NCBI RefSeq assembly: GCF_003663885.1
Contig: NZ_RCCE01000002.1
Coordinates: 1-64,000, forward strand
Reading direction: 5' to 3'
Length of the DNA: 64,000 nucleotides
Source: Litoreibacter meonggei
GTDB taxonomy: Bacteria > Pseudomonadota > Alphaproteobacteria > Rhodobacterales > Rhodobacteraceae
Positions 36,146-58,113 of this stretch are shown here, one piece after another; positions within the stretch are counted from its first letter, which is position 1, and the number at the start of each line of letters is the position of its first letter. The notes under the pieces were generated by a model, which was not told the origin of the DNA, did not search any database, and was given only the letters and a program-made list of their open reading frames with translations. Made by a program: the position numbers and the translations under genes.

Positions 36146-36181
36146 TTGCTCAGAAAGCGCTTTTGATTGCTGATATTCTAT

Positions 36182-36239: not shown

Positions 36240-36265
36240 GTGTTAGTCAATGCAGTCGGGAAAGA

Positions 36266-37030: not shown

Positions 37031-37833
37031 CTGATCTATCGCTGTTGGTTGAAGCTGACGGACCCGCCTTTGGAATTCACAACGAAGATGGGACAAGCCC
37101 GATTGTTGTAGTTTGTGAGCATGCGTCAAATTGCGTGCCGACGCTGCTGAAAAACCTTGGTCTCACTGTCAGCCAACTTGATACCCACGTGGCGTGGGAC
37201 CCCGGCGCGGCCATCCTAGCCAGAAAACTGAGCGATGCCTTTGACGCCCCTCTCATAGAGGCTCGGTTCTCGCGTCTTGTCTATGACTGCAACCGCCCAC
37301 CTGACGCGCCGAGTGCGATGCCCGCTGATACAGAAGTTTGCGCAATCCCCGGGAACGCAAAGATCACCAAGGCGGAGCGTCAAACGCGCACCCGCGAGAT
37401 TTACGAGCCGTTCCATGTGGCTGTCACTGAAACACTAAACCGACACCGAAGCGCTGGCCGCACGCCTGTTTTGATAACCGTGCACAGCTTTACTCCGGTG
37501 TTTCACGGAAAGGCACGCGACGTTGAAATAGGTCTATTGCACGGGCAAGATGATCGTTTAGCGCGCGCCATGATGGAAGCGATCGAACATGCGCCTTACG
37601 ACACCCGCGCAAACGAGCCGTATGGACCCGAGGATGGCGTACTTCACAGTATTGAAAAGCATCTGACTAACGACCCCATGCCTTATGTGATGATCGAAAT
37701 TCGAAACGACCTACTGGCGACGGATGACGGACTGTCAGACATCTTCGCCCTCCTCTCCCGAAGTATTTCCCAGGCTGTGACCAGTCTGGACCTCCACCCT
37801 CCCTTAGCCAAACCGGATGTATCTGATGCCTGA
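37027..37833 (+). CDS. N-formylglutamate amidohydrolase-family protein
   Basis: Zinc-type amidohydrolase family that includes HutG-like N-formylglutamate deformylase. Seen: VVVCEHASNCVP near the start, DTHVAWDPGA, RFSRLVYDCNRPPDAPSA, ITVHSFTPVFHGK and VMIEIRNDLL, all standard for the family. 268 aa. No other histidine-degradation gene is nearby. It is instead followed, with overlap, by a glutamine-synthetase-like ligase gene, so it may cleave a gamma-glutamyl or N-acylglutamate intermediate made by that ligase. That role is inference from context. Confidence 0.85.
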   Translation: MTDLSLLVEADGPAFGIHNEDGTSPIVVVCEHASNCVPTLLKNLGLTVSQLDTHVAWDPGAAILARKLSDAFDAPLIEARFSRLVYDCNRPPDAPSAMPADTEVCAIPGNAKITKAERQTRTREIYEPFHVAVTETLNRHRSAGRTPVLITVHSFTPVFHGKARDVEIGLLHGQDDRLARAMMEAIEHAPYDTRANEPYGPEDGVLHSIEKHLTNDPMPYVMIEIRNDLLATDDGLSDIFALLSRSISQAVTSLDLHPPLAKPDVSDA

Positions 37834-39190: not shown

Positions 39191-39201
39191 GGGGACCACC
39201 T

Positions 39202-40581: not shown

Positions 40582-40582
40582 G

Positions 40583-41728
40583 ATGAACCTGACTGGCAAC
40601 TGGTCCTACCCGACCGCTATCCGTTTTGGCGCAGGGCGCATTTCGGAAATCGCTGACGCGTGCAAATCCGCTGGCATGTCCAAGCCTTTGTTGGTGACGG
40701 ATAAGGGGCTGGCGTCGATGGAGATCACCACGCGAACGCTCGACCATCTGGAGGCGGCAGGCTTGGGGCGCGGGCTGTTTTCCGAAGTCGACCCGAACCC
40801 CACGGACAAGAACGCCGAAGCTGGCGTCGCAGTCTACCGCGAGGGCGGGTATGATGGCGTCGTAGCGTTTGGCGGCGGTTCTGGCCTTGATCTGGCGAAG
40901 GTCATCGCGTTTTGGGCAGGCCAGTCCCGCCCGCTGTGGGACTTCGAGGATGTCGGCGACTGGTGGACCCGCGCTGACCCCGACAAGATCGCGCCCATCG
41001 TGGCTGTGCCTACCACGGCTGGCACCGGCTCCGAAGTGGGCCGCGCGAGTGTGATTACCAACTCGGACACCCATGAGAAGAAGATCATTTTCCACCCCAA
41101 AATGCTGCCCGCCGTGGTGATCTGCGACCCGGAACTGACCGTCGGCATGCCCAAGTTTATCACCGCAGGCACCGGCTTGGACGCCTTCGCCCATTGCGTC
41201 GAAGCTTATAGCAGCCCGCATTACCACCCGATGAGCCAAGGGATTGCGCTGGAAGGTATGCGGCTGGTCAAAGAGTACCTGCCCCGCGCCTATGCCACCC
41301 CGACCGACCTTGAGGCCCGCGCCCATATGATGTCCGCTGCCGCCATGGGGGCCACGGGCTTCCAAAAAGGTTTGGGCGCCATTCACGCGCTGAGCCACCC
41401 GATTGGCGCGGTCCATCACACCCATCACGGCACCACCAACGCGGTGTGCATGCCAGCGGTCCTGCAATTCAACAAAGACGTGATCGCCGCGCGGTTTGAT
41501 ATGGCCGCTGCCTATCTTGGAATCGCTGGCGGGTTTGGCGGTTTCTGCGCCTATGTGGATGAGCTGAATGCCTCCATGTCGATCCCGAAAACACTGACGG
41601 AGCTGGGCGTCAAAAACCCTGACTTAGACCTGTTGACCGACGCCGCATTACGCGACCCGAGCACGGGCGGCAATCCGGTCGAGATGACAGCTGCGAATAC
41701 CAAAGCGTTGTTTGAGGCCATTCTCTAG
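40583..41728 (+). CDS. Iron-containing alcohol dehydrogenase
   Basis: Group III (Fe) alcohol dehydrogenase, 381 aa. The nucleotide site GGGSGLDLAKVIAFW, the PTTAGTGSEVG loop, the metal ligands in GLDAFAHCVEAYSS and HALSHPIGAVHHTHHGTTNA are all in place. Last gene of the operon that begins with the DeoR gene at 36266; it starts one base after the aldehyde dehydrogenase stop. It probably oxidises an alcohol group of the pathway intermediate to the aldehyde. A perfect 10-bp hairpin follows. Confidence 0.92.
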   Translation: MNLTGNWSYPTAIRFGAGRISEIADACKSAGMSKPLLVTDKGLASMEITTRTLDHLEAAGLGRGLFSEVDPNPTDKNAEAGVAVYREGGYDGVVAFGGGSGLDLAKVIAFWAGQSRPLWDFEDVGDWWTRADPDKIAPIVAVPTTAGTGSEVGRASVITNSDTHEKKIIFHPKMLPAVVICDPELTVGMPKFITAGTGLDAFAHCVEAYSSPHYHPMSQGIALEGMRLVKEYLPRAYATPTDLEARAHMMSAAAMGATGFQKGLGAIHALSHPIGAVHHTHHGTTNAVCMPAVLQFNKDVIAARFDMAAAYLGIAGGFGGFCAYVDELNASMSIPKTLTELGVKNPDLDLLTDAALRDPSTGGNPVEMTAANTKALFEAIL

Positions 41729-41778: not shown

Positions 41779-44220
41779 TTAGGCCTTCACACGCTCCATT
41801 TTTGGATCATACAGCGGTGCCATATGGACCGTGCAGGGCACTCGCTCGGTCGCGACCTCCAACTCGTAGTCGCCATCCATCACATAGTTCGCGTCGATGA
41901 CTTCATCCGAGCGAACATAGCCGTAGCCGATTGATTTGTTAAGCGTGTAGCCAAACCCGCCGCTGCTCAGCCACCCGACCCGCTTGCCGTTCCGGTAGAT
42001 GGTTTCTCGCCCGGACAGCACAATATCAGGGGCCGCAGTGAAGCCTGCGAGTATCTTCTTCACCCCGTTGTCGCGCTGCGCCTCGGCTGCTTTGCGCCCT
42101 TTGAAGTCAATGTTCTTTTTCAATTTCATCGCCCACGCCAATCCTGCCTCGGCGGGCGTGTGGTCGGGGCCGATATCAGCCCCCCATGCGCGGTAGCCTT
42201 TTTCCAGACGCATACTCTCAATTGTGCGGTATCCCGCGTCTCGCAACCCGAACTCCGCACCTGCTTCTGCCAATGCGGTGTAAACGGTAGTGGCATATTC
42301 CACCGGTAGGTGAAGCTCCCAGCCCAACTCCCCCACATAGGTGACCCGCAATGCGTTCACTGGGCATCCGGCGATGCCGATGGTTTTCGCCGTGCCGAAC
42401 TTGAACTCTTCATTGGAGATGTCCGCGTTGGTGACCTTTTCAAGAATGTCGCGCGCTTTTGGCCCCATCAGCGACAAGACCGCATATGCGGACGTCACAT
42501 CGACCAGTTGCACGTTCATGCCGTCAGGGATGTTGCGCGATATCCACTCGAAATCATGGGTCGCGAAGCCGGTGCCGGTGACGATGTAATACTCGTCGCG
42601 TGCCATTCGCACTGTGGTCAGGTCGCACTCGATACCACCACGGTCATTGAGCATTTGCGTGTAGACCAATGAGCCTACCGGCTTTTGCACGTCATTGGCC
42701 GCAATCCAGCTGAGCGCTGCTTCTGCGTCCGGCCCTTTGAGGACGAACTTGGCGAATGACGTTTGGTCGAACAAAACCGCAGCTTCGCGCCCAGCTTTGT
42801 GCTCTTCGCCAACAATGTCGAACCAGTTCTGCCGCCCGAAGCTATAGACGTCCTTCGGCTCCATCCCGGCTGGTGCGAACCAGTTTGGTCGCTCCCATCC
42901 CAGCTTCTCGCCAAAGCAGGCCCCTTTGCCTTTCAGCGTCTCGTACAACGGTGACTTCCGGCATGGCCTGCCAGAGCTGTGCTCCTCGAACGGCCATGCC
43001 ATCGTGTAGTGTTTGCCATATGCCTCTACAGTACGGGTGCGGACCCAGTCAGTGTCGAAATGCGGGCGACCAAAGCGGCGGATATCCACGGGCCACAAAT
43101 CGAACGGTGGCTCGCCCTTGGCAACCCATTCCGCTAGCGCCATCCCTGCCCCGCCACCAGCGGCGATGCCATAGGCGTTGAAGCCTGCACCGACGTAGAA
43201 ATTCTTCAACTCAGGCGCTTCGCCCAGAATGAAGTTCCCGTCCGGCGTGAAGCTTTCCGGCCCGTTCACCAGTTGCTTGATGCCAGCGGTCTGCAAGGCT
43301 GGCACTCGGCCCAATGCCAGCTCCACAATCTGCTCGAAATGGTCGAAATTGGAGTCCAGCAACGTGTAGTGGAACCCCTTCGGGATACCTTTGAGCGCCC
43401 ACGGAATCGGGTTCGGCTCGTAGCCGCCCATGACCAATCCACCTACCTCTTCTTTGTAGTAGGTCAACCGGTCCGGGTCGCGCAGTGTGGGCAGGTCTGA
43501 CGTCACGCCGTCGATCTGTTCCGTGACCATATACTGGTGCTCCATCGGAACCAGCGGCACATTCACCCCAACGGTCGCCGCGAAATCGCGGGTCCATTGG
43601 CCGCCGCACAGAATGACCTTTTCGCATTCGATGAAGCCCGTTTCCGTCATCACGCCTTTGATCACACCGTCTTCAAGCTCGATCTTGGTGACTTTCGTAT
43701 CTTCGAAAATGCGCGCTCCAGCCATGCGGGCGCCTTTGGCCAGTGATAGCGTTATGTCGGACGGGTTGGCTTGACCATCGGTCGGCATGTAAGCCGCGCC
43801 GACCACATCATCGACGTTCATCAAAGGCCATAAATCTAGGGCTTCTGTTGGTGTGAGCAACTGCATCTCCAGACCGAACGAGTGTGCGGTCGTAGCCTGC
43901 CGCTTGACCTCGGTCCAGCGTTCCTCGTTACACGCAAGACGCAGGCCGCCATTCATTTTCCAACCGGTTGCTTGGCCGGTCTCCTTCTCCAACGTGTTGT
44001 AGAGATCAACTGAATAGCCCAGCAATTGCGTGATATTGGCGTTGGACCGCAGTTGTCCAACAAGACCCGCCGCATGAAAGGTCGTGCCGGAGGTCAGTTT
44101 CTGCCGCTCCAGCAAGACGACATCAGTCCAGCCAAGTTTTGCCAGATGATACGCCGTGGAGCAGCCCACGATACCGCCCCCGATAACGACGGCCTTTGCA
44201 CTGGTTGGGAAGGTGCTCAT
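41779..44220 (-). CDS. FAD/GcvT demethylating dehydrogenase (dimethylglycine/sarcosine dehydrogenase-like), copy 1
   Basis: Two-domain enzyme, 813 aa. The N-terminal DAO flavoprotein domain has VVIGGGIVGCSTAYHL (12-26) and the conserved His49 in TTFHAAGLVGQLRS, the position that carries covalent FAD in dimethylglycine dehydrogenase. The C-terminal half is a GcvT/aminomethyltransferase-like folate domain (TQMLNDRGGIECDLT, YVGELGWELHLP, YRTIESMRLEKGYRAWG). Such proteins oxidatively remove N-methyl groups and hand the carbon to tetrahydrofolate. Last gene of the proXVW-kinase operon. ATG 44220 is preceded by GAGGAAC. Substrate may be dimethylglycine, sarcosine or another methylated amine. Confidence 0.9.
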   Translation of the reverse strand: MSTFPTSAKAVVIGGGIVGCSTAYHLAKLGWTDVVLLERQKLTSGTTFHAAGLVGQLRSNANITQLLGYSVDLYNTLEKETGQATGWKMNGGLRLACNEERWTEVKRQATTAHSFGLEMQLLTPTEALDLWPLMNVDDVVGAAYMPTDGQANPSDITLSLAKGARMAGARIFEDTKVTKIELEDGVIKGVMTETGFIECEKVILCGGQWTRDFAATVGVNVPLVPMEHQYMVTEQIDGVTSDLPTLRDPDRLTYYKEEVGGLVMGGYEPNPIPWALKGIPKGFHYTLLDSNFDHFEQIVELALGRVPALQTAGIKQLVNGPESFTPDGNFILGEAPELKNFYVGAGFNAYGIAAGGGAGMALAEWVAKGEPPFDLWPVDIRRFGRPHFDTDWVRTRTVEAYGKHYTMAWPFEEHSSGRPCRKSPLYETLKGKGACFGEKLGWERPNWFAPAGMEPKDVYSFGRQNWFDIVGEEHKAGREAAVLFDQTSFAKFVLKGPDAEAALSWIAANDVQKPVGSLVYTQMLNDRGGIECDLTTVRMARDEYYIVTGTGFATHDFEWISRNIPDGMNVQLVDVTSAYAVLSLMGPKARDILEKVTNADISNEEFKFGTAKTIGIAGCPVNALRVTYVGELGWELHLPVEYATTVYTALAEAGAEFGLRDAGYRTIESMRLEKGYRAWGADIGPDHTPAEAGLAWAMKLKKNIDFKGRKAAEAQRDNGVKKILAGFTAAPDIVLSGRETIYRNGKRVGWLSSGGFGYTLNKSIGYGYVRSDEVIDANYVMDGDYELEVATERVPCTVHMAPLYDPKMERVKA

Positions 44221-44228
44221 GGTGTTCC

Positions 44229-45116
44229 TCACATTGCTTTGAAGTCAGAGAGCGCGGCATTAAATCGCGACATGTTTTTTCGGGTGTAGTCGGCGTAGTC
44301 GAAGTCGATTTCGGAGTGGATTTCCGACACCATGCTCCACATGGTTTCGCGCAGCAGGGAGGCGCATTTCATCGCCTGATAGCGATTGCGCAGCTGGTCG
44401 GTCACAGGGGCTTCGAAGTAAGTTTCCAACAGCCAGCTCTCTTGCCGTTCGTGCAGTTCATTGTTGGACGCGAGCCCTGCGAGATCGAACAGCGGGGAGT
44501 TGAAGCCGCCATATTCCCAATCGAGTAACCACAACCGTTTTCCATCATCTATGAAATTGGCCGCGAGCAGGTCATTGTGCCCCAGAACCATCTGCACCGG
44601 CCCGACAGATCGCTCCAGTTTGTCCGCGGTTTCCAGCAGGTCCGGCAATATTTTGGTGTAGCTTGACCGGCCATGTTTCAACGTCGCCGCATAGTCACGC
44701 AGGACATGGAAAACCCAGAATGTCAAAATGGGGCCACGCAGGAACCGGACCGCATCGGTGTGACAGGTTTTGAGCAGTGGTACGATCCGCTCTAGCATCG
44801 CGTCTTGGCGTATTGCTTTCTCGTCCAATGTGCGTCCTTCAACGAAATCCAGCACCAAGATGCCGGGCTCTGCATGCACAATAGCTGGCGCGATCCCCGC
44901 CGCATGTGCCGCTGCATGTACGGCTTGCTCGTTAAAGCGCATGATCTGGTGCAGGACGATGTCCTCACCTACACGCACCACGTAGCGCTTGCCCTGATCC
45001 CAGACCGAGACGTTGAAATTGGTGATACCGCCGCCCAGAAACTCGATCCCCTTCGCGGCTTTCCAGATGGGCAAGTTCGAGACCTTGTCCAAGGCTCTTT
45101 GCTCAGCTTCGGTCAT
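44229..45116 (-). CDS. Choline/aminoglycoside kinase-like phosphotransferase, copy 1
   Basis: APH/choline-kinase-fold protein, 295 aa. The N-lobe has GGGITNFNVSVWDQGKRYVVR. The Brenner catalytic motif is GHNDLLAANF, with the DFG-like metal motif in LWLLDWEYGGFNSPLFDLA. LicA/choline-kinase-like proteins phosphorylate alcohol groups of small amines. It overlaps proW by four bases and precedes the demethylating dehydrogenase by eight bases, so it is produced with a betaine-type importer. Substrate is inferred to be an imported amino-alcohol or quaternary amine. Confidence 0.85.
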   Translation of the reverse strand: MTEAEQRALDKVSNLPIWKAAKGIEFLGGGITNFNVSVWDQGKRYVVRVGEDIVLHQIMRFNEQAVHAAAHAAGIAPAIVHAEPGILVLDFVEGRTLDEKAIRQDAMLERIVPLLKTCHTDAVRFLRGPILTFWVFHVLRDYAATLKHGRSSYTKILPDLLETADKLERSVGPVQMVLGHNDLLAANFIDDGKRLWLLDWEYGGFNSPLFDLAGLASNNELHERQESWLLETYFEAPVTDQLRNRYQAMKCASLLRETMWSMVSEIHSEIDFDYADYTRKNMSRFNAALSDFKAM

Positions 45117-47122
45117 GATGCCATCCCCATTTTAGTGCGTGCTCTGGTGGCGAAAGCGGACAAGATGCGGTCGGCAATGATGGCGATGAAAGCCACCGAC
45201 AGCCCCGCAACAATACCTTGTCCGGTGTTGGCTTTGGTCAGAGCGATATAGACCTCCTGCCCTAGGTCACGCGTGCCGACCAAGGCAGTGATCACCAGCA
45301 TGGACAGCGCCAGCAAAATAGTCTGGTTCAGGCCCAGCAGCAGCTCTGGCAAGGCCATGGGCAGTTTGATCCGCCAAAGCAACTGCCTTGGGGTGCAGCC
45401 GGATACCAGCCCGGCCTCGACAAGTTGCGGATCGACACTGCGCACGCCATGCGCCGCATAGCGGACAGCGGGGGCCATCGCATATAGCACCACCGCCACC
45501 ATTGCCGAGAAATCACCGACGCGGAACAGCATGACCACGGGGATCAGGTACACAAAGCTCGGCAAGGTTTGCAGCGTGTCAATGAACGAGCCGATGATCC
45601 GATTTGCCCTGTCGTTTTGGGCGGCCAAAATGCCCATCGGGATACCGATGGCCGATGCCACCAGCACCGAGACACCGCACAGATAGACCGTGACCATGGC
45701 TTTGTTCCAAAGCCCGACCGCCGCGATGAACGCCGTCAGAACACCGCTGAGAAGCCCAAGTCCGATACCGCCGACCCGCCAGCCGATCAGCGTCATCACA
45801 ATGATGCCCCATGCCCACGGAATGCCCACGAAGAAGCGCTTCACCGGCAAGAGCAGATAGGTCAGGAACACCGTTTTGACGGCCTCGAATGTGTCGAAGA
45901 AATTCACGTTGATGTAGCCGATCACGTCCGACCAAAAGGTGCCGGTCGAGAGCGTCATGCTTTCGGGATAGTCTTGGATCGCGGGTAGAATGTAGGACAG
46001 AAGGAAGGTGCCGATAGCCACAACCAGAACAGTCACCGCCCAAGGATGACGCCCAGCTAAGTTCTGAGTTGTGTTGCTCGGCAGTTCATCCGCGACCCGC
46101 GTCGCAAAGGCCTGACTAAGCCTGTCCAGCGCTATCGCCATGACCACAATAGCAACGCCCGCCTCGATCCCGCCGCCGATGTCGAGCCGTCGCAGCGCGG
46201 TCAGGACGTCATAGCCAAGCCCGCCTGCCCCGATCATGGAGGCGATGATGACCATGTTCAGTGACAGCATGATCACCTGATTGACCCCCACCATCAGCGT
46301 CGGTGCAGCCGAGGGGATGATCACCTTCCACATCAGTTGGCGTTTGGTGCAGCCGACCATGACGCCCACGTCGTGGACCTCGCTCGGCACGCCGCGCAGG
46401 GCGACAATCGTGACGCGCACCATGGGTGGCATGGCGTAGATGATGGTTGCGACCAGTGCGGCAACGGGACCGAAGCCGAACAGGAACAAGATCGGCACAA
46501 GGTAGGAGAAGACCGGAACGGTCTGCATCAGGTCCAAAACGGGTCGGATGAACATCTCGAACGCGGGCACGCGGTAGGCCAGCACGCCCAGAAGCAGCCC
46601 CCCGATTGCGCCGATTGGCACGGCAATCAGCACCGAAGCCAGCGTCACCATGGCGCTGTCCCACTGGCCGAATACCGCGAGGTATCCAAAGCATCCCGCC
46701 ATCAACGCGGCGAGTTTCCAGTCGCGCGCATAATGGCCCATCGCGGCAAGCGTGACGATAACAGCGACCCAACTCAATGACGGGGCCACGTCCACTGCGT
46801 CACTGCCAAGCCCCACAGAAAAGCCGTCTATCAGCGCGTTGCGCGCGAACGTATAGGGGGCTTCGATCAACGAGGAGATGAATCGCGTCAAATCGCGAAA
46901 GCTGAACAGGCCAAAGCTTGCATCCTCGACCAGCCATTGCATGAAAGCGCTGATTTTGGCCTCCAACTGCAAACGGGCACCGGCGGGGTATTTAATAATC
47001 CAGCGCGCGCCGAGTGCCTTGTAGAGAGGAAAGGAATAAGCCGATAGCACCCAAGTCACCGCAAAAATAGGCACCCAAAAAAGCGCGGCTTTCTGAAGAA
47101 ATATGCGGCGCAGAAGGTTCAT
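45113..47122 (-). CDS. proW: Glycine betaine/proline-type ABC permease, tandem-fused ProW
   Basis: Inner-membrane subunit, 669 aa, with two complete permease domains in one chain. The first has VPVFSYLVPILFLFGFGP and GVPSEVHDVGVMVGCTKRQL. The second has TLPSFVYLIPVVMLFRVG and VDPQLVEAGLVSGCTPRQLL, each an EAA-type loop with Cys-Thr. Ordinary ProW has one such domain (about 350 aa). The duplication removes the need for a homodimer. Overlaps proV and the kinase gene by four bases each. Confidence 0.93.
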   Translation of the reverse strand: MNLLRRIFLQKAALFWVPIFAVTWVLSAYSFPLYKALGARWIIKYPAGARLQLEAKISAFMQWLVEDASFGLFSFRDLTRFISSLIEAPYTFARNALIDGFSVGLGSDAVDVAPSLSWVAVIVTLAAMGHYARDWKLAALMAGCFGYLAVFGQWDSAMVTLASVLIAVPIGAIGGLLLGVLAYRVPAFEMFIRPVLDLMQTVPVFSYLVPILFLFGFGPVAALVATIIYAMPPMVRVTIVALRGVPSEVHDVGVMVGCTKRQLMWKVIIPSAAPTLMVGVNQVIMLSLNMVIIASMIGAGGLGYDVLTALRRLDIGGGIEAGVAIVVMAIALDRLSQAFATRVADELPSNTTQNLAGRHPWAVTVLVVAIGTFLLSYILPAIQDYPESMTLSTGTFWSDVIGYINVNFFDTFEAVKTVFLTYLLLPVKRFFVGIPWAWGIIVMTLIGWRVGGIGLGLLSGVLTAFIAAVGLWNKAMVTVYLCGVSVLVASAIGIPMGILAAQNDRANRIIGSFIDTLQTLPSFVYLIPVVMLFRVGDFSAMVAVVLYAMAPAVRYAAHGVRSVDPQLVEAGLVSGCTPRQLLWRIKLPMALPELLLGLNQTILLALSMLVITALVGTRDLGQEVYIALTKANTGQGIVAGLSVAFIAIIADRILSAFATRARTKMGMAS

Positions 47123-48150
47123 TTTTTAAGCACCCGACCGACAAGCACGTCGATGACAGCTTGCCTGCCAATTGTGCCGACAGCATTGCCCTCGTCATCC
47201 AACACCTTGAACGGCAACTCGCTTGCCTCAAGCATGTCCGCAACCGCTTCGATGCGTTGACCGATGCCCACATCGCCCGCGGTTTTGATGTCATCACCTC
47301 CGCGTGTCATCACGGCCCCGACCGTGAGAACCTTTGATCGCGATACGTGACGCGTAAACTCCTCTACGTACTCCGTGGCGGGGTTCAGCACCAATTCTTC
47401 AGGCGTGGCAACCTGAACGACTTTGCCGTCTTTCATCACGGCAATCCGATCTGCCAGCCGAATGGCCTCATCAAAATCATGGGTGATGAACACGATGGTT
47501 TTGTGAAGCAGGTTTTGCAGCCGCAAGAACTCGTCCTGCATTTCGCGACGGATCAGCGGGTCAAGCGCCGAGAAGGGTTCATCCAAAAACCACAGATCCG
47601 GCTCCACCGCCAAGGAGCGCGCGATGCCCACGCGCTGCTGCTGACCGCCCGACAATTGGCGCGGGTAGTAGGACTCCCTGCCCTTCAAGCCAACAAGCTC
47701 AATAACCTCGCGGGCGCGCGCCTCTCGATCAGCTTGCGGGATGCCTTGAACCTCTAAAGGGAAGGCCGTGTTCTCTAATACTGTTAGGTGCGGAAGCAGT
47801 GCGAATTGCTGGAACACCATCCCCATCTTCTTGCGGCGAATTTCAATCAGTTCAGCGTCGCTTGTCGTTAGAAGGTCTTTGCCCTCGAACAAGATTTCCC
47901 CGCCCGTAGGCTCAACCAGTCGAGACAGGCACCGCACCAGCGTGGATTTTCCCGAGCCGGACAGCCCCATGATGACGAAGATTTCGCCCTGTCGGATTTG
48001 CAAATTCACCGCGCGAACGGCACCTATCAACCCATGGTCTTTGAGTGTCTCAGAGCTGGGGTTCCCGTCATGTTCGCGATGGATACGCGACGCCTGCGCG
48101 CCGTAGATTTTCCAGACGTTCTTGCAGTCCAGTATGATAGGTTTTTGCAT
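47119..48150 (-). CDS. proV: Glycine betaine/proline-type ABC ATP-binding protein ProV
   Basis: ATPase with Walker A GLSGSGKSTLVRC, Q-loop MVFQQFALLPHL, signature LSGGQQQRVGIARSLA, Walker B LWFLDEPFSALD and H-loop FITHDFDEAIRLA. The N-terminal 60 residues (ENVWKIYGAQ-like opening KNVWKIYG) and a C-terminal CBS-like region (VGAVMTRGGDDIKTA) follow the ProV plan. 343 residues. Second gene of the proXVW operon, with an intercistronic hairpin before it. Confidence 0.94.
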   Translation of the reverse strand: MQKPIILDCKNVWKIYGAQASRIHREHDGNPSSETLKDHGLIGAVRAVNLQIRQGEIFVIMGLSGSGKSTLVRCLSRLVEPTGGEILFEGKDLLTTSDAELIEIRRKKMGMVFQQFALLPHLTVLENTAFPLEVQGIPQADREARAREVIELVGLKGRESYYPRQLSGGQQQRVGIARSLAVEPDLWFLDEPFSALDPLIRREMQDEFLRLQNLLHKTIVFITHDFDEAIRLADRIAVMKDGKVVQVATPEELVLNPATEYVEEFTRHVSRSKVLTVGAVMTRGGDDIKTAGDVGIGQRIEAVADMLEASELPFKVLDDEGNAVGTIGRQAVIDVLVGRVLKK

Positions 48151-48214
48151 AACATCCTCGGATGCAATCTAATCGGACCGGAAAATCCGGAGACATCGTG
48201 CGGGATAGATGGAT

Positions 48215-48238
48215 TGGATGGGCGCATTGGCCCACCCA
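48215..48238 (-). promoter_or_regulatory. Intercistronic hairpin between proX and proV
   Basis: On the minus-strand transcript TGGGTGGGC pairs with GCCCATCCA around a six-base loop; a G-U wobble replaces what would be an A-C mismatch on the plus strand. This suits an RNA structure in the proXVW mRNA. No T-run follows on that strand, so it likely sets the ratio of binding protein to membrane subunits. Confidence 0.5.
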
Positions 48239-48249
48239 TTTTTTATGGT

Positions 48250-49194
48250 TTAGTTCGCGATCCAGGTTGACCAAGCCGCCTCGTTCGCCGCAAGCCAAGC
48301 ATCGGTCACTTCGTCTACCGACTTGCCATCCAGATCAACTGCCGCGACCATGTCGCCCATATCATCATTGTTGACCGTGAAGGCTTTGATAGCCTCGACA
48401 GCGCCGGGCCATGTTTCGGCTACGGTGGAGGATGCGACCTTCCATATCGGGCCCGTGGGCTTGCCACAGTCATAGGCCATTGAAGTGTTCATCCCAACTG
48501 AAGGATCGGCGTAGCATTCCGCCGAATACTCGGGGAATTTCACGAAGCTGCCTTCATATTTGGTCGGAGCCCAGTGCGGTGCATAAATCCAAAGCACGAT
48601 GGGCGCCTTGCGCTGATAGGCGCTTTCAAGTTCTGCAAACAACGCGGCATCTGTACCGGCATGAACCACTTCGAAATCCATGCCCAACGCTTCGACACGT
48701 TCGTCATCAAAGCCACCCCATGTTACTGGACCACCTAAATAGCGTCCCATCGGTGCGGTTTCGGGGGTGGCGAACTCAGCCGCGCAGTCGTTGAGAGCTT
48801 TCCAGTCGGGCAGACCGGGGCAAACCTCTTCCATATAGGCCGGATACCACCACTCCTCGATGGCGATCATGCCCGTCTCACCCAAGTTGACTACTTTGCC
48901 GGTTGCGGTTGCTTCGTCCATGGCTTCGCGACCTGTGGTTTCCCATATCTCCATGGCCACATGCAGATCGCCAGTCTTCAAGCCGGCAAACTGTGCGATG
49001 TAGTCGGCTTGCACATATTCGACATTGTAACCCGCCTTGGACAGAACCTTACCCATGAGGGTTGTTGTCACCAGCTGGCCCGTCCAGTCGTGCATCGTCA
49101 GTTTGATCGGCTCCTGCGACTCTGCGGCGGCCAGTGCCGCCCCCGCGATACTTAGTCCCGCAGCTGCCGCCACTCCAAAAGTGAAAATACGCAT
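48250..49194 (-). CDS. proX: Glycine betaine/proline-type ABC substrate-binding protein ProX
   Basis: Periplasmic OpuAC-domain protein, 314 aa. Signal peptide 1-23 (AGAALAAAES). The mature part begins with KLTMHDWTGQLVTTTLMGKV and contains MEIWETTGREA, IEEWWYPAYMEEVCPGLPDW and WIYAPHWAPTKYEG, whose tryptophans and tyrosines would form the aromatic cage for a quaternary amine. First gene of the operon proX-V-W-kinase-demethylase. Ligand: glycine betaine, choline or a related compound; co-transcription with kinase and demethylase genes suggests a catabolic rather than an osmotic purpose. Confidence 0.9.
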   Translation of the reverse strand: MRIFTFGVAAAAGLSIAGAALAAAESQEPIKLTMHDWTGQLVTTTLMGKVLSKAGYNVEYVQADYIAQFAGLKTGDLHVAMEIWETTGREAMDEATATGKVVNLGETGMIAIEEWWYPAYMEEVCPGLPDWKALNDCAAEFATPETAPMGRYLGGPVTWGGFDDERVEALGMDFEVVHAGTDAALFAELESAYQRKAPIVLWIYAPHWAPTKYEGSFVKFPEYSAECYADPSVGMNTSMAYDCGKPTGPIWKVASSTVAETWPGAVEAIKAFTVNNDDMGDMVAAVDLDGKSVDEVTDAWLAANEAAWSTWIAN

Positions 49195-49303
49195 AGTAGT
49201 CCCCTGTCTAGTTTGAGTTGCAGACCCAGAGCCCCCCTAGAACGCTGGATTCGGTTTGTTCTTAAGATCAAAGTTTCAACACTCCGCAGCACATATCAAT
49301 AGC

Positions 49304-49325
49304 AAAACCACATTAATGTGGTTTT
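49304..49325. promoter_or_regulatory. Perfect 22-bp palindrome between proX and a DeoR gene
   Basis: A fully symmetric 22-base element with core CCACATTAATGTGG and AAAA/TTTT ends. Further TGTGG copies follow at 49329 and 49349. It is in the divergent promoter region of the proX operon and the second DeoR gene and is a strong operator candidate for that regulator. Confidence 0.6.
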
Positions 49326-49380
49326 TGATGTGGCTCACTGGTGATTTTTGTGGCTTTCTATACAAAATCCACACGATTCC

Positions 49381-50202
49381 ATGAAAGCAAACAGAATGAA
49401 CGCGCCAGCGACTTCAGATCAAAAGCCCGCCGACCCGCCTCATGTTTCGCATCGCGGTATGGAAATTTTGGACCTGATTACAGTCTCAGGTGGCAATATG
49501 AAAATCCAGTCAATCGCCTCGGCGTTGGATGTGTCGGAGGAAACCGTTCGCCGCAATCTCAAACCGCTCTCGGCAAGTGGGTTGGTAAAGCGGGTTCATG
49601 GCGGGGTTTATCTCAAACAAAGCTCCACCGAATTGAGCTTCGCACAACGCATGGATGAAAACCCCCGCCCCAAACAACGCATCGCTGCGCATATTGCGGG
49701 GCTAATCAGCGACGGCAGCTCATTGTTTTTGGATATTGGATCGACGACTGCCTTCATTGCGAAAGCCCTGCGCACCCATAAAGAACTGCTGGTTGTCACC
49801 AACTCCGTCGCGGTTGCCCATACCCTGGCCGCTCATAACAACAATCGCGTCTTCATGCCCGGCGGTGAGTTGCGCGCCCATGATGGCGGGATTTTCGGAG
49901 CCCAAGTCATCGACTTCATCAAGCCGTTCCACATGGATTTCGCGGTACTTTCGACCGCCGCTATCAACGCAACCAACGGGTTTATGTTGTTCGATCTCGA
50001 AGAAGCCCATTATTCCCGCGCCATTATCGAGCGCGCCAGCACACGGATTATCGCCGCCGACAGCTCCAAGTTCGGGCGAACAGCTCCAATCTCGATTGGG
50101 CCTGCGTCCGATGTCGAGTTATTGGTCACTGACGCACCACCGCCCGCGGACATTGCGAAAGCAGCACGGGATTGGTCGACAGAAATTGTCGTAGCTGGAT
50201 AA
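49381..50202 (+). CDS. DeoR/GlpR-family transcriptional regulator (second of three)
   Basis: DeoR HTH (MEILDLITVSGGNMKIQSIA, then LDVSEETVRRNLKPLSASGL, VKRVHGGVYL) and DeoRC sensor (LFLDIGSTTAFIAKAL, VVTNSVAVAHTL, NGFMLFDLEEAHYSRA). About 273 aa from ATG 49381. ATG 49396 and a TTG at 49348 are also in frame and no start has a clear ribosome site. An N-terminal extension of about 20 residues precedes the HTH. Divergent from proX across a 22-bp palindrome, and followed after 25 bases by a phosphatase gene. Confidence 0.9.
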   Translation: MKANRMNAPATSDQKPADPPHVSHRGMEILDLITVSGGNMKIQSIASALDVSEETVRRNLKPLSASGLVKRVHGGVYLKQSSTELSFAQRMDENPRPKQRIAAHIAGLISDGSSLFLDIGSTTAFIAKALRTHKELLVVTNSVAVAHTLAAHNNNRVFMPGGELRAHDGGIFGAQVIDFIKPFHMDFAVLSTAAINATNGFMLFDLEEAHYSRAIIERASTRIIAADSSKFGRTAPISIGPASDVELLVTDAPPPADIAKAARDWSTEIVVAG

Positions 50203-50227
50203 AGCGCGAGCAGAAGGACACATACTA

Positions 50228-51007
50228 ATGCCTGACACATTGGCGACGCGCCTTGAAACGGCGCTCAAACTTACTGAAACAGCGAGCAGGATCGCCCTCG
50301 ACCATTTCGAGGGTGCGCTGCATATCGATACAAAAGATGATGCCAGCCCCGTCACCATTGCAGATCAGGAAACTGAACAGTCCATTCGCGCCCAGCTTGA
50401 AGAGGCATTTCCACTGGACGGCATCTATGGCGAGGAGTTCGACAACCTTCGCCTCGACAGCAACACCATCTGGGTCGTTGACCCGATTGATGGGACACGG
50501 TCGTTCATTGCAGGTGTTCCCTTGTTCGGCATGTTGTTGGCAATGGTGCAGGATAATCACCCCGTTCTAGGCATCTGCCGCCTTCCGGCTCTGGGGCAGG
50601 TTTACTCTGCAGCAAAAGGCGCTGGCGCGACACGAAATGGCACGCCCATAAAGGTTTCGCAGCAAACTAAGCTGAGTGAAGCCATGTTGTTTATCAACGA
50701 AGGCGAAGGGATCTATGAGGACGAGCCGCAGGTCTTCGAGCGCCTCACCAAAGCCGGGAAGCTGCGGCGACTTTCTTACGACTGCCAACCCCATGCTTTG
50801 GTTGCGTCTGGTCAAATTGACGCTGTGGTGGATTACAACCTGAAGCCCTACGACTATCTGGCTATGGTTCCAATCATCGAAGAGGCCGGCGGCGTCATCA
50901 CCGACTGGCAAGGCGCGACGTTGGATTTCAACTCGGATGGGCGGGTAGTCACGGCATCGACGCCCAAGCTTCATGCCGAACTTCTAGCATTGCTTAACGC
51001 GGATTAA
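50228..51007 (+). CDS. Inositol-monophosphatase-family phosphatase (HisN-like)
   Basis: Mg2+-dependent phosphatase, 259 aa. Metal ligands: Glu in GEEF (residues 68-71), Asp in VVDPIDGTRSF (Asp85, Asp88), and the late Asp in LKPYDYLAMVPIIEEAGG. The sequence type is that of HisN-like histidinol-phosphatases, a family that also includes phosphatases of other small substrates. No histidine synthesis gene is nearby. Its position between two operons with choline-kinase-like genes, behind a DeoR gene, suggests dephosphorylation of a metabolite of this locus. Its stop overlaps the convergent kinase stop by four bases. Confidence 0.85.
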   Translation: MPDTLATRLETALKLTETASRIALDHFEGALHIDTKDDASPVTIADQETEQSIRAQLEEAFPLDGIYGEEFDNLRLDSNTIWVVDPIDGTRSFIAGVPLFGMLLAMVQDNHPVLGICRLPALGQVYSAAKGAGATRNGTPIKVSQQTKLSEAMLFINEGEGIYEDEPQVFERLTKAGKLRRLSYDCQPHALVASGQIDAVVDYNLKPYDYLAMVPIIEEAGGVITDWQGATLDFNSDGRVVTASTPKLHAELLALLNAD

Positions 51008-51933
51008 CCCCGCACCGCGGCGACGTGCCGCTCGAACGCCGGATCGGTCATCAACGATTTGCATCTCTCGAACCGTCCGACCGAATACGCCCAGAAATCC
51101 TCTGCCGGATTTCCGTCGGCATGCTGGATCAGCCCCCAAAGCGTCCAGAGCAGATCACACATGGCCTTATAGATTACCATACGCCCCATCTGCGCATCGG
51201 TTGGCGGCGCTCTAAAATAGGCAGTCAACATTTCGATATCTTGTTCGGCGGTCAGCCCGGCCTCGACCGACAAATCGCCGAGGTCCCATAACGCGTCGTT
51301 CATGCCGGAGTACTCAAAATCAACGATCCACATTCTGGTGCCGTCATCTAGGAAGTTCTCACATAGCGGATCACAATGGCTTGGCACCAAGGTTCCGGGC
51401 TGCTCCGCAAGCAGTTGTTTGATCGGTTGCGCGTCAGATACGACCTTGTGGTAACCTTCCGGCAGGTCGGTGTCCTTTCCAGACAGGACCGACAGGTAGT
51501 CGTCGATCATCGCAAACAACTCAAAACGAAACTGGAAGTCTCGCGGCGCGTCGTGCAATTTCCGCAACGCTGTTCCCGCCCGTGCAGGCGAGCCGGCACG
51601 ACTTTGAAACAGATCAGGGATCATGGTTACAATGCCGTCAACACAGTCATTGACCATGACACCGCTTGCGCTGTCCGCCCACAGAACCACAGGCGCTACG
51701 CCTGCCTCTTCGGCAACCCGCGTGTTGTGAATTTCAACGGCGCGGTCGATATAATCTTCAGTCCCCTGCCCGGGGATACGGACCACAACACTTTGGCCGT
51801 CAGCTACGACGCGGTAGACCAGATTGGTCAATCCGCCCATGCGTTGAATTTCAACATTAGCGTCGTCTATATCGGCAAAGCCGTCTACCTTGCGCAGCAC
51901 CTCAAGGATTTGGGTCTTGTTCTCGTCGCTCAT
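51004..51933 (-). CDS. Choline/aminoglycoside kinase-like phosphotransferase, copy 2
   Basis: 309-residue choline-kinase-fold protein: N-lobe MGGLTNLVYRVVADGQSVVV, catalytic PSHCDPLCENFLDDG, metal motif MWIVDFEYSGMNDALWDLGD. Note Cys-Asp replaces the usual His-Asn/Gly-Asp start of the Brenner motif (HxD pattern HCD is kept). Same family as copy 1 but clearly diverged. It begins 13 bases after the second demethylating dehydrogenase gene on the same strand, so the kinase-demethylase pairing is conserved in both operons. Confidence 0.85.
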   Translation of the reverse strand: MSDENKTQILEVLRKVDGFADIDDANVEIQRMGGLTNLVYRVVADGQSVVVRIPGQGTEDYIDRAVEIHNTRVAEEAGVAPVVLWADSASGVMVNDCVDGIVTMIPDLFQSRAGSPARAGTALRKLHDAPRDFQFRFELFAMIDDYLSVLSGKDTDLPEGYHKVVSDAQPIKQLLAEQPGTLVPSHCDPLCENFLDDGTRMWIVDFEYSGMNDALWDLGDLSVEAGLTAEQDIEMLTAYFRAPPTDAQMGRMVIYKAMCDLLWTLWGLIQHADGNPAEDFWAYSVGRFERCKSLMTDPAFERHVAAVRG

Positions 51934-51946
51934 TTGGGTTCCCGCC

Positions 51947-54370
51947 TCAACTCTTCAGCCGCAGATTTTTCGGATCATAAAGCGGCCCGTCAACCCGCGT
52001 GATCTTGTGCCGCTCGCCAAACACCTCCAACTCGAAGTCATCTTCGCCGGCCAGATCCGCTGGAAGGTAACCGAAGATGATCGTTTTATCTACGGTGTGC
52101 CCGAAGCCGGCGCTTGTTGCGACAGAAACAGTTTTGCCCACCTTAACAATAGTTTCTCCGCCTGTGATCGGCAGTTGGTCGTCACAAGTGAAAGTACACA
52201 ATCGCCTGTCAGTGCCATTCGCCCTTTGCTGTTCCAACACGGCGCGACCTTTGAAATCCGCTTTGCTTTTCAGATGCACTCGAAAGCCGAGCCCCGCCTC
52301 AATTGGCGTATAGTCGGGCGTGATATCGGCACTCCAGTAAAGGTATCCCTTCTCCAGACGCAGGCTTTCAATCGCGCGGTAGCCGACGTCGCGAATGCCA
52401 TGCGCCTGACCGGAACTCCACAATAGATCATAAACATGGCGCCCGAACTCGGTGGGGATATGCAATTCCCACCCCAACTCTCCCACATAGCCGATACGCG
52501 TGGCGAGCACGGTTGCAGCACCGACGACAATCTCCTGTGCAGTCCCGAAAGGAAATACGTCATTGGATAGATCATCCTCCGACACGCTTTGAAGCACTTT
52601 ACGCGCCTTGGGTCCGCAGATATTCACTACAGCACGAGCTGACGTCACTTCGATCAGATGCACAGAGCCATCGGTTGGCAACGCACGTCTAATCCAGTCG
52701 CTGTCATGCATCCCGAATCCCGAACCGGTCACGATGTAGAACCGATCCATAGCGAGACGGGTGATAGTCACGTCAGCTTCGATTCCACCCTTACCATTGC
52801 AAAGCTGCGTATAGATGACAGCGCCTACGGGCTTGTCCATGTTGGACACGGCGATGCGTTGCAGCACGGGTAAAGCCTCCGCCCCGATCAGCTCGAACTT
52901 GGAAAAGCTAGATTGATCGATCAACGCCACCCCTTCACGTACGGCCTTGTGTTCTTCGGCGGCATACGTCTTCCACCCCGGATTGATGAAGGCCAACTGG
53001 TCCGCCTGATCAACGCCCTTCGGCGCAAACCACAATGGGCGTTCCCAGCCGTTCTTTGATCCGAAAATAGCGCCATGTTCCTTCACGCGGTCATGAAGTG
53101 GGCTCAACCGGAGATTGCGCGCCGTTTCCGCCTCCTGCCCTGGGTACCGCATTTTGTAATGATGCGCGTAGTGTTCGACGGCGCGCGGATACATGAATGC
53201 CTTGGTGGCGTGATGCGGGCTGAAACGGCGCACATCCAGCGGCCAAAGATCAAGACTGGGGCTGCCATCGAGTATCCACTCGGCAATCATCTCGCCCGCG
53301 CCACCACCCGCCGCGATCCCGTACAGGAACCCCGTCGACAGCATCAGGTTTTTCAGGTTTGGGGCCCAGCCCATGACAAAATCGCCATCTGCGGAATACG
53401 GGATTGGACCGTTGATGACTTGGCGAATGCCCACCTCATTAACCACCGGTGTCACCTGCCCCGCCATTTCGGCCAGCGGTGCAAAACGGTCTAGATTGTC
53501 AGGCAAAAGCTGGCGGACGAATTCGCCGGGAATGCCCTTGTCGCCAAATGGCAGGGTGTCGTCTTCGTAGCCGCCAATGACCAGCCGCCCGCCGGCATCG
53601 GGCTTGTAGTAAACCAACCGCTCAGGGTCGCGCAGTGTCGGCAAGCCTTTGACCAGCTCGGGATCGGGCAGCGGTTCGGTGACGATATACTGGTGCTCTA
53701 CCGCGCAGGCTGGGACGATCACGCCCAGCTTCGCCGCCAGCTCGCGGCTCCACATACCCGCGGCCAGAACGACCGTTTCCGCCTCATAGTCGCCTTCGGT
53801 GGTCATCACTTTTGTGATGCGGTTATTTACGATTTCGAAGTCGGTAACCTTCACGCCTTGCAGGATCTTCGCCCCATGCATCCGCGCGCCGCTCGCGATG
53901 GCTTGGCACAGGCTGGCGGGGTCGACATGCCCGTCGGACGGGATAAACGCCGCGCCTTTCAGCCCTGTCGCGTCAATGTAGGGAAACAGCGATTTCGCCT
54001 CATCCGGTGTGACCATCTCCATTTCCAGATCAAAGCTACGCGCCATTGTGGTCAACCGTTTGGCTTCCAGCATTCGTTCTTTGGTCGCCGCGAGCCGTAG
54101 ACTGCCAACCTTTTTCCAATCGAACGCCATGCCAGTCTCGGCTTCCAACTGGTCATACATCGCGACGGAGCGTTTCAGCATCCGCGTGGTATTGCGCGAT
54201 GACCGTAGCTGTCCGACCAAACCAGCGGCATGCCACGTCGCCCCTTCAGTCAGCGACGCCTTCTCAAGAAGAACCACATCTTTCTCGCCGGACTTTGCCA
54301 AATGATACGCAATCGAGCAGCCGATGATGCCGCCACCAATGATCAGATGCTTCGCTGAATGTACCGCCAT
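51947..54370 (-). CDS. FAD/GcvT demethylating dehydrogenase, copy 2
   Basis: 807 aa, the same two-domain plan as the protein at 41779-44220. FAD motif LIIGGGIIGCSIAYHL, His47 in ATWHAAGLVGQLRSSRN, and a GcvT folate domain (TQLCNGKGGIEADVTI, YVGELGWELHIP, YRAIESLRLEKGYLYW). Many regions align with copy 1 but overall they look like old paralogues with different substrates. First gene of the operon with kinase copy 2; divergent from the third DeoR gene. The start 54370 is the only plausible one; its ribosome site is weak. Confidence 0.88.
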   Translation of the reverse strand: MAVHSAKHLIIGGGIIGCSIAYHLAKSGEKDVVLLEKASLTEGATWHAAGLVGQLRSSRNTTRMLKRSVAMYDQLEAETGMAFDWKKVGSLRLAATKERMLEAKRLTTMARSFDLEMEMVTPDEAKSLFPYIDATGLKGAAFIPSDGHVDPASLCQAIASGARMHGAKILQGVKVTDFEIVNNRITKVMTTEGDYEAETVVLAAGMWSRELAAKLGVIVPACAVEHQYIVTEPLPDPELVKGLPTLRDPERLVYYKPDAGGRLVIGGYEDDTLPFGDKGIPGEFVRQLLPDNLDRFAPLAEMAGQVTPVVNEVGIRQVINGPIPYSADGDFVMGWAPNLKNLMLSTGFLYGIAAGGGAGEMIAEWILDGSPSLDLWPLDVRRFSPHHATKAFMYPRAVEHYAHHYKMRYPGQEAETARNLRLSPLHDRVKEHGAIFGSKNGWERPLWFAPKGVDQADQLAFINPGWKTYAAEEHKAVREGVALIDQSSFSKFELIGAEALPVLQRIAVSNMDKPVGAVIYTQLCNGKGGIEADVTITRLAMDRFYIVTGSGFGMHDSDWIRRALPTDGSVHLIEVTSARAVVNICGPKARKVLQSVSEDDLSNDVFPFGTAQEIVVGAATVLATRIGYVGELGWELHIPTEFGRHVYDLLWSSGQAHGIRDVGYRAIESLRLEKGYLYWSADITPDYTPIEAGLGFRVHLKSKADFKGRAVLEQQRANGTDRRLCTFTCDDQLPITGGETIVKVGKTVSVATSAGFGHTVDKTIIFGYLPADLAGEDDFELEVFGERHKITRVDGPLYDPKNLRLKS

Positions 54371-54518: not shown

Positions 54519-55283
54519 ATGTCAAAGCACGAGCAAGAAATCCTGTCCCTCGTAAACCTGCGAGGAACGATCACCGTGGTTGAGCTGGCTCAGACATTGG
54601 ATGTCTCCGACCAGACGATCCGGCGGATTGTGAAGCCGATGGAAGAGCGTGGCGTGGTTCGAAAAGTCCATGGCGCACTCATCAGTACGCAAGAAGTTAT
54701 GGATCCGCCCTTCCTTGCGCGGATGAACAAGAACCGCGCAGCAAAGGTCGCGATTGCCAATTGCGTTGCCGATCTGGTGCAGGACGGATCGTCACTGGCC
54801 ATAGATACGGGCTCCACATCAGGGTATGTCGCTCAGGCTTTGCGGCGGCGGAAAAACCTGACGATCGTGACCAACTCGGCCTATATCGCCAGCACCTTGT
54901 CGATGGTCGAGGGAAACCGCGTGTTCATGGCTGGCACCCAGTTAAGAAACCATGACGGAGCAGCGTTCGACCGCGCGGCCTTTGACGTCATCGCAAGTCT
55001 CACGGTCCAGCATGCAATTCTCTCGGCCTCCTCGGTCCACCCGACACGCGGGTTTCTGGCCTTCGATCAATGTGAAATCGACATCGCACGCGCGATGATA
55101 GATATCTCTGCACGTACTGTTATGGCCGTTGATGCGACGAAGTTCTCGGCAAGCGGCTCCCTGCCCTCACTGCGCATGCCGGAGCTGCGGGCGAATGATG
55201 TGGTTGTTGTCGACCAATCGCCGGGAGCGGCGTTCTCGGATTTGATCGACCCCAAGCAGCTGGTTGTTGCGGCAGGCCAATAG
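54519..55283 (+). CDS. DeoR/GlpR-family transcriptional regulator (third of three)
   Basis: DeoR HTH (ILSLVNLRGTITVVELAQTL, then LDVSDQTIRRIVKPMEERGV, VRKVHGALI) and DeoRC sensor domain (SLAIDTGSTSGYVAQAL, IVTNSAYIASTL, RGFLAFDQCEIDIARA). 254 aa. Divergent from the copy 2 dehydrogenase operon and convergent, with one base between stops, with the Ugp importer genes. It could control either; the shared inverted repeat favours the dehydrogenase operon. Confidence 0.9.
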   Translation: MSKHEQEILSLVNLRGTITVVELAQTLDVSDQTIRRIVKPMEERGVVRKVHGALISTQEVMDPPFLARMNKNRAAKVAIANCVADLVQDGSSLAIDTGSTSGYVAQALRRRKNLTIVTNSAYIASTLSMVEGNRVFMAGTQLRNHDGAAFDRAAFDVIASLTVQHAILSASSVHPTRGFLAFDQCEIDIARAMIDISARTVMAVDATKFSASGSLPSLRMPELRANDVVVVDQSPGAAFSDLIDPKQLVVAAGQ

Positions 55284-58040: not shown

Positions 58041-58072
58041 TCAAATTTCTCGCCCCCTTGACCGGTCGTACG

Positions 58073-58105: not shown

Positions 58106-58113
58106 AGTTTGCT

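Follow-up and report, generated by a model that had tools for sequence, protein, structure and literature searches.

Gene organization of the locus

The sequence analyzed is a stretch of 64,000 nucleotides (termed the window) from Litoreibacter meonggei, a member of the Rhodobacteraceae (contig NZ_RCCE01000002.1, positions 1 to 64,000). It carries two gene pairs, each made up of a choline-kinase-like gene and a gene for a demethylase with FAD and GcvT domains. These are termed kinase A and demethylase A, and kinase B and demethylase B (Table 1). A preliminary description of this DNA had named these genes and several of their neighbors, and all were found in place by their coordinates and by Pfam and NCBIfam profiles. 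The pairing does occur twice: both kinases score above the PF01633 (Choline_kinase) cut-off of 29 bits (kinase A 78.2, kinase B 63.1), and the DAO, FAO_M, GCV_T and GCV_T_C domains are all above cut-off in both demethylases.

The first operon runs from proX to demethylase A. There is a 4-bp overlap at every junction of proV, the proW-type permease gene, kinase A and demethylase A, and a gap of 99 bp between proX and proV. The operon is divergent from a DeoR gene (49348-50202, + strand). Demethylase B and kinase B are 13 bp apart and are divergent from a second DeoR gene (54519-55283, + strand), so that each pair has its own DeoR gene and the first is joined to proXVW, as previously described. 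The phosphatase gene (50228-51007) starts 25 bp past the first DeoR gene and lies between both pairs.

The two pairs had been called copies. The amino acid identity is about 30% between the kinases and about 49% between the demethylases (the latter read from the near-identical orthologue in genome G001). Judged by these values, they are two pairs of old, diverged paralogues, and not copies.

A perfect 22-bp palindrome (49304-49325) is a possible DeoR operator; a search with its 18-bp core gave no other match with three or fewer mismatches in the window. A looser half-site likeness is present upstream of demethylase B. An operator common to both DeoR-flanked gaps was looked for and rejected: the two gaps share nothing better than a 14-mer with 2 mismatches, too weak to use.

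Table 1. Features of the kinase-demethylase locus and the neighboring ethanolamine operon; functions termed proposed are predictions.
Feature	Positions	Strand	Support
DeoR-family regulator of ethanolamine operon	36266..37030	+	NCBIfam DeoR/GlpR matches, below cut-off
FGase-family amidohydrolase; proposed gamma-glutamylglycine amidohydrolase	37027..37833	+	PF05013, 160.6 bits
Glutamine-synthetase-like; proposed ethanolamine gamma-glutamylase	37817..39190	+	75% identical to 5dm3 chain
Aldehyde dehydrogenase	39202..40581	+	NCBIfam aldehyde dehydrogenases, under cut-offs
Iron-containing alcohol dehydrogenase	40583..41728	+	PF00465, 172 bits
Demethylase A, FAD/GcvT; proposed phospho-methylethanolamine demethylating dehydrogenase	41779..44232	-	PF01266, PF16350, PF01571, PF08669
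Kinase A, choline/ethanolamine kinase family; proposed methylethanolamine kinase	44229..45116	-	PF01633, 78.2 bits
ProW-type permease, two transport domains	45113..47122	-	PF00528 twice; TIGR03416 above cut-off
proV, ProV-type ABC ATPase	47119..48150	-	TIGR01186, 362.7 bits (cut-off 326.6)
proX, ProX-type substrate-binding protein (OpuAC), TmoX-like	48250..49194	-	PF04069, 153 bits; closest solved relative 4xz6 (TmoX), E 1.4e-75
Candidate operator, perfect 22-bp palindrome between proX and DeoR 1	49304..49325	.	sequence search of window
DeoR-family regulator 1	49348..50202	+	PF00455, PF08220
Inositol-phosphatase-family HisN-like phosphatase; proposed phosphoethanolamine phosphatase	50228..51007	+	PF00459, 172 bits
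Kinase B, choline/ethanolamine kinase family; proposed dimethylethanolamine kinase	51004..51933	-	PF01633, 63.1 bits
Demethylase B, FAD/GcvT; proposed dimethyl step	51947..54370	-	PF01266, PF16350, PF01571, PF08669
DeoR-family regulator 2	54519..55283	+	NCBIfam DeoR/GlpR matches, below cut-off

Conservation of the kinase-demethylase pairs

The pairs were followed in a family sample of 296 genomes, nearly one per genus. The thresholds were E <= 1e-35 for kinase A, E <= 1e-280 for demethylase A, E <= 1e-60 for kinase B and E <= 1e-150 for the glutamine-synthetase-like (GS-like) gene of the ethanolamine operon. Kinase A is found in 55 genomes, demethylase A in 52, kinase B in 33 and the GS-like gene in 184. 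Kinase A members score at least 333.9 bits; below them come kinase B matches, which do not exceed 141 bits. Kinase A is present in all 52 genomes that have demethylase A and in all 33 that have kinase B. The two A genes share a contig in 48 genomes and are 0-207 bp apart in every one of them; in 4 others they are split over contigs. Three kinase-A genomes have no demethylase A at the threshold: in G139 it adjoins the kinase in two frames, in G294 it is cut by the contig end, and the third is G318. Among 61 near genomes, 8 have a match to either kinase (E <= 1e-15). By score these matches fall into two orthologous families, kinase A and kinase B, each found in 7 genomes and together in 6.

A scan of named genomes gave at least 559 relatives of kinase A. 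The best 80 loci were used, so the sample leans to close relatives. Kinase A is followed by demethylase A within 77 bp (measured between alignment edges) in 73 of the 80, and one more locus stops at a contig edge. Among named genomes the nearest is that of Litoreibacter halocynthiae (kinase A 96% identical), and relatives of the module are also found in rhizobia and Gammaproteobacteria. ProXVW is missing from many rhizobial loci, which show a bare form with a DeoR gene, kinase A and demethylase A; in a few, an ABC ATPase gene lies upstream in its place. The neighborhood survey suggested in the preliminary description thus shows a pairing that is far beyond chance and is not unique to this genome.

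Some loci have additional genes. Three (L047, L137 and L140) lack demethylase B and have a small S-adenosylmethionine-methyltransferase-like gene between demethylase A and kinase B; the assignment comes from Pfam in L137 and L140, and from sequence similarity only in L047. In a gammaproteobacterial locus (L083, positions 13406-14356) and its relatives, demethylase A is followed by an Abhydrolase_3 (acetyl-esterase-like) gene, whose cluster is found in 9 loci. Its product might free an amino alcohol from an ester.

Linkage to an ethanolamine operon

The operon at 36266-41728 brings together an FGase-type hydrolase, the GS-like enzyme, an aldehyde dehydrogenase (ALDH) and an iron-containing alcohol dehydrogenase (Fe-ADH). 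The solved protein 5dm3, to which the GS-like sequence is compared in Table 1, is presumably from Chromohalobacter.

In the available text of Westermann et al. (2023; PMC10132767), the enzymes GGAH, ETAGA, GAADDH and GETADH form a predicted ethanolamine route in Phaeobacter sp. MED193. The set is made from one operon in cells grown on phosphorylethanolamine, and the authors note the close relationship of the cluster to genes demonstrated in Chromohalobacter salexigens and Agrobacterium. The window operon has the same enzyme types, and the order of GS-like, ALDH and Fe-ADH genes is equal. It differs in having a DeoR gene where MED193 has RpiR. In addition, no TRAP transporter gene is present inside the window operon, this being a feature of the published cluster and not of the chemistry. 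As presented in that text, the MED193 pathway begins at ethanolamine and includes no kinase, demethylase or phosphatase. The ethanolamine operon as a partner of the kinase-demethylase pairs is a new link, absent from the preliminary description.

The ethanolamine operon and the module meet in four arrangements. In the window and in L053 the two are convergent. In a Leisingera locus (L082) ProXVW, kinase A, demethylase A, an AraC regulator (GbdR-like, below cut-off), the phosphatase, FGase, GS-like and ALDH genes and the start of the Fe-ADH gene form one run; L092 has the same run, which ends within the GS-like gene. In L133 the order is kinase A, demethylase A, GS-like, Fe-ADH. In L134 the genes for RpiR, FGase, DctM, DctP, GS-like, ALDH and Fe-ADH (with DctM and DctP as the TRAP subunits searched for) adjoin a run of DeoR, demethylase B, kinase B, phosphatase, ProXVW, kinase A and demethylase A. 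This is the RpiR-FGase-TRAP-GS-ALDH-FeADH order published for Phaeobacter (available text of PMC10132767), so that L134 carries almost all of the published cluster, and judged by gene order it links the GS-like family to that TRAP-linked cluster. In the family sample the GS-like gene is found in 52 of 55 kinase-A genomes vs 132 of 241 others (p 3e-9, uncorrected for relatedness).

Proposed pathway

Ethanolamine is the likely end product, which makes N-methylated ethanolamines the likely substrates, in preference to betaine or carnitine. A plain betaine route was dropped as the main reading. The best-supported reading, for which the case is about evenly balanced, is that these genes form a catabolic module for N-methylated ethanolamines, which would pass via phosphorylated intermediates into the known ethanolamine route. 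This reading is built on gene content, conserved pairing, co-occurrence, ethanolamine-pathway linkage and conserved pocket residues; from these we infer every reaction, the exact substrates, the order of kinase before demethylase and the division of labor between A and B.

In the proposed pathway, ProXVW would bring in the amino alcohol. The choline-kinase-family enzyme would phosphorylate the hydroxyl and create an anionic handle that replaces the carboxylate bound by dimethylglycine dehydrogenase (DMGDH). The FAD/GcvT enzyme would then oxidize an N-methyl group and hand it to tetrahydrofolate. Kinase B and demethylase B are proposed to convert phospho-dimethylethanolamine to phospho-methylethanolamine, and kinase A and demethylase A to carry out the monomethyl step to phosphoethanolamine. 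The HisN-like phosphatase would release ethanolamine, and the operon at 36266-41728 would convert it to glycine through gamma-glutamyl intermediates.

A wider proposal is put forward tentatively, as somewhat more apt to fail than to hold. This is that the genes represent a widespread, undescribed pathway in which an amino alcohol is phosphorylated first so that a DMGDH-family demethylase can grip the phosphate, two pairs lead to phosphoethanolamine, and trimethylamine monooxygenase (Tmm) with trimethylamine N-oxide demethylase (Tdm) can replace the dimethyl step. The pairing survey and the ethanolamine linkage lend support to the earlier suggestion that phosphorylation and folate-linked demethylation here may form an undescribed methylated-amine catabolic system, with a phosphatase that could complete the kinase step. 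The TmoX-like cage of ProX, the kinase B pocket and demethylase residue 255, each described below, may be counted as supporting details.

The demethylases

The closest solved relative of demethylase A is rat DMGDH (4p9s, E 1.5e-165). An alignment to the rat enzyme shows the covalent-FAD His (HAAG motif) and a His and a Tyr aligned with the catalytic dyad. According to the available text of PMC5082570, dimethylglycine oxidase (DMGO) and DMGDH use a His-Tyr dyad, and an acetate in DMGO mimics the substrate carboxylate. The window demethylases have the four domains, the FAD-His motif and the dyad-aligned His and Tyr in common with the DMGDH/sarcosine dehydrogenases (human and rat DMGDH, Arthrobacter DMGO). 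They differ in being always basic at position 255, and in that their genetic partner is a kinase, not betaine genes.

Position 255 comes from a comparison of columns in 67 demethylase A rows (the divergent L068 left out) and 15 demethylase B rows with seven comparators, i.e. rat DMGDH and six of the seven other paralogues in the genome (the seventh has no locus). Of the 251 columns that are conserved and common to demethylases A and B, 8 have no equivalent in any of the 7 comparators. Position 255 is the sole charged one of the 8. It lies three residues ahead of the Tyr aligned with the rat DMGDH Tyr, which is read as catalytic. The residue, an Arg in demethylase A, is basic in 83 of 83 rows (counting L068 and two Lys-bearing B rows) and in none of the 7 comparators. 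Position 255 and the kinase linkage suggest that dimethylglycine or sarcosine is an unlikely substrate of these demethylases.

The preliminary description had itself raised the case of plain dimethylglycine and sarcosine dehydrogenases with unrelated kinases. The closest solved relatives of the demethylases are indeed dimethylglycine dehydrogenases. The co-occurrence and adjacency with a kinase, the ethanolamine linkage and a residue 255 unlike that of rat DMGDH speak against this, as does the presence of seven other genes of the demethylase family among the nine DMGDH-like genes of the genome. It is retained as an alternative, although a highly improbable one.

Another alternative is that the demethylases use free N-methylethanolamines, and that the kinases phosphorylate the product ethanolamine or precursors for lipids or a side branch. 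The module would still supply ethanolamine, the phosphate not being the handle. The linkage to ethanolamine genes holds equally for it. It is nevertheless unlikely: kinase A is tied to demethylase A as strictly as a catabolic partner, the genes overlapping by 4 bp in the window; the phosphorylation would be undone by a phosphatase encoded in the same operons; and the basic residue 255 is left unexplained.

The kinases

Kinase B has a solved orthologue (3dxq, E 1.4e-106). The top NCBIfam name for both kinases, the GntI guanitoxin kinase (NF041256), was rejected, the scores being 147.8 bits for kinase A and 137.9 for kinase B with a cut-off of 357.

Residue counts cover 68 rows for kinase A and 18 for kinase B, among them the window sequences; loci without a cleanly called gene were dropped. 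The LicA choline pocket consists of Tyr197, Glu213, Trp251, Trp254 and Tyr268 (available text of PMC4364537). In LicA numbering, the catalytic Asp176, Asn181 and Asp194 are kept in 68 of 68 kinase A and 18 of 18 kinase B rows. Kinase B also keeps Tyr197, Glu213, one aligned Trp and Tyr268 in 18 of 18 rows. A W-x-x-W-type Trp pair is seen in 5 of 5 kinase-B rows of a smaller alignment, and kinase A has one Trp. Kinase A shows Asn at the position of the pocket Glu213 in 68 of 68 rows and Val, Ile or Thr at that of Trp254. The kinases are thus like LicA and the choline/ethanolamine kinases in Pfam family, catalytic Asp and Asn residues and, for kinase B, the pocket Glu. They differ in that LicA decorates the cell wall, whereas the window kinases are tied to a demethylase. 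The kinase B pocket appears choline-kinase-like, a supporting detail that counts toward methylated ethanolamines as substrates.

This likeness also bears on the idea that choline is imported, that kinase B forms phosphocholine, and that an enzyme elsewhere takes the first methyl and the module the rest. TmoX proteins, the relatives of ProX, also bind choline (available text of PMC8918994). However, no Rieske oxygenase or methyltransferase was seen to be shared by the loci, and beyond the module genes no gene family is present in more than 10 of 85 clustered loci. In marine relatives choline is degraded by the Bet route, as far as the accessible accounts go. This origin of the substrate is quite improbable.

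The transporter and the phosphatase

The TmoX box consists of Trp55, Trp102, Trp177 and Trp222 plus Glu131, as given in the accessible part of PMC8918994. ProX retains the Glu and three of the four box Trp throughout (44 of 44 rows). Trp222 is replaced by Tyr in all 44 rows, Phe220 by Trp in all 44, and Phe106 by Gly in 43 and Ala in 1. Judged by these cage residues, ProX appears to be related to TmoX yet not specific for trimethylamine N-oxide (TMAO).

The near invariance of the cage in 44 rows speaks against a substrate other than a methylated ethanolamine, i.e. another hydroxylated N-methylamine, for instance an algal amino alcohol or a methylated amino-propanol, that would likewise be phosphorylated first. 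The linked downstream genes, which match the ethanolamine pathway, also speak against it. The exact substrate is not fixed by sequence, and the rhizobial and gammaproteobacterial loci have other neighbors. A different amine is nevertheless decidedly unlikely.

The genes ugpC, ugpE, ugpA and ugpB adjoin the locus at 55285-59424, which could point to breakdown of a betaine-lipid head group (glyceryl-trimethylhomoserine). The ugp genes are not conserved with the module: the 80 named loci show scattered UgpC-like ATPase matches of 25-52% and no UgpB. Such a function is extremely improbable.

Histidinol phosphate is itself an amino-alcohol phosphate, and cleavage of phosphoethanolamine by a relative of HisN is therefore plausible. 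The phosphatase at 50228-51007 scores 259.4 bits to the HisN profile TIGR02067 (cut-off 275.15), and another gene in the genome reaches 277.8. It is plausible, by this family relationship, that the enzyme cleaves phosphoethanolamine. The phosphatase gene is inside the module operon in L070, L072, L082 and L092. In a locus of another family (L045, genome G037) a HAD-family hydrolase gene is found instead, 18 bp past kinase B.

Tmm and Tdm genes upstream of kinase A

In L133 the genes for Tmm (817.5 bits, cut-off 675) and Tdm (1186.2 bits, cut-off 1100) are directly ahead of kinase A. L141, from another genus, has relatives of both (88% and 74% identical) in the same position. Tmm-Tdm was not found beside kinase A in the best 80 named loci. 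Tdm is present in 23 of the 55 kinase-A genomes, with one match each, and adjoins kinase A in two (L133 and L141).

The published demethylation pathway of trimethylamine (TMA) and TMAO (Tmm, Tdm, TmoXWV) has a TmoX-like binding protein in common with the module. TMAO has no carbon-bound hydroxyl to phosphorylate. According to the available text of PMC8918994, the TMA/TMAO pathway ends in methylamine and GmaS, not in ethanolamine genes.

Tmm-Tdm may remove one methyl of dimethylethanolamine via the N-oxide, and kinase A and demethylase A would then act on the resulting methylethanolamine. The position of Tmm-Tdm ahead of kinase A suggests that half A handles the monomethyl step, and the finding of kinase B only with kinase A suggests the dimethyl step for half B. 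A division of labor between the halves can be inferred from this. Kinase B is present in 8 of 23 kinase-A genomes with Tdm vs 25 of 32 without it (p 0.002, ignoring relatedness), and 7 of the 55 have neither Tdm nor kinase B. This avoidance fits alternative dimethyl steps, although it was sought only after the idea arose.

Points against the proposed pathway

Several findings weigh against breakdown of methylated ethanolamines through phosphorylated intermediates. In the joint alignment the second LicA Trp (Trp254) pairs with an Ile, not a Trp, of kinase B, the register being unsure. In 60 of 68 kinase-A rows an Asp takes the place of LicA Glu196, a residue important for catalysis by LicA. Demethylase A clusters with two other paralogues of the genome and not with demethylase B in a quick tree (long branches flagged); since A and B are not sister groups, the basic residue 255 that they share is either old or convergent. 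The need for two kinases is not accounted for if the phosphate stays through both steps. To our knowledge, a flavin demethylase cannot take a quaternary amine, and choline itself would thus need another enzyme.

Linkage is also incomplete. The GS-like gene is common anyway (184 of 296 genomes), is missing from three kinase-A genomes, and is physically linked within the fetched flanks in a minority of 3 of the 80 named loci. The phosphatase is within the fetched flank in only 19 of the 80. Kinase A is without an adjacent demethylase A in 6 of the 80 (L064, L087, L094, L099, L101 and L126). In three of these (L094, L099 and L126) a kinase A relative of 57% identity, without demethylase A, adjoins an aminotransferase family (cluster 35). 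Its other neighbors are D-Ala and muramoyltetrapeptide carboxypeptidases in L094 and glucose-6-phosphate dehydrogenase in L099. This raises the question of whether these kinase A relatives are put to a different use.

Other genes in the window

The window segment at 28753-36286 (- strand) encodes an ABC transporter (permease, PotA-like ATPase and SBP_bac_8 binding protein), a Pyr_redox flavoprotein and a DAO-family oxidase, and is divergent from the DeoR gene of the ethanolamine operon. Relatives of three of its transport genes (64-77%) are found about 4-8 kb past demethylase A in Roseovarius litorisediminis (L077). These genes are possibly another amine system. At 60507-63469 a gene for a NosR-like membrane protein (456.8 bits, cut-off 1000) is followed by an ApbE-family gene.

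Significance

What is new is the combination of known enzyme families and the substrates predicted for them. No such kinase-demethylase module was found in the listed titles and abstract openings of open-licence papers on homarine, on dimethyl- and methylethanolamine, or on choline kinase with DMGDH or GcvT, and no bacterial catabolic genes were found assigned to methylated ethanolamines in the open-licence literature. Methylated ethanolamines are related to phospholipid head groups and to choline. Schemes of how marine bacteria degrade methylated amines usually deal with TMA, TMAO, choline, betaine and carnitine. If the proposed pathway is true, methylated ethanolamines would gain genes, enzymes and a transporter in roughly one of every five genera covered by the family sample (55 of 296 genomes) as well as in rhizobia and Gammaproteobacteria, and phosphate-tagged amines would be an added type of substrate for the dimethylglycine dehydrogenase family.

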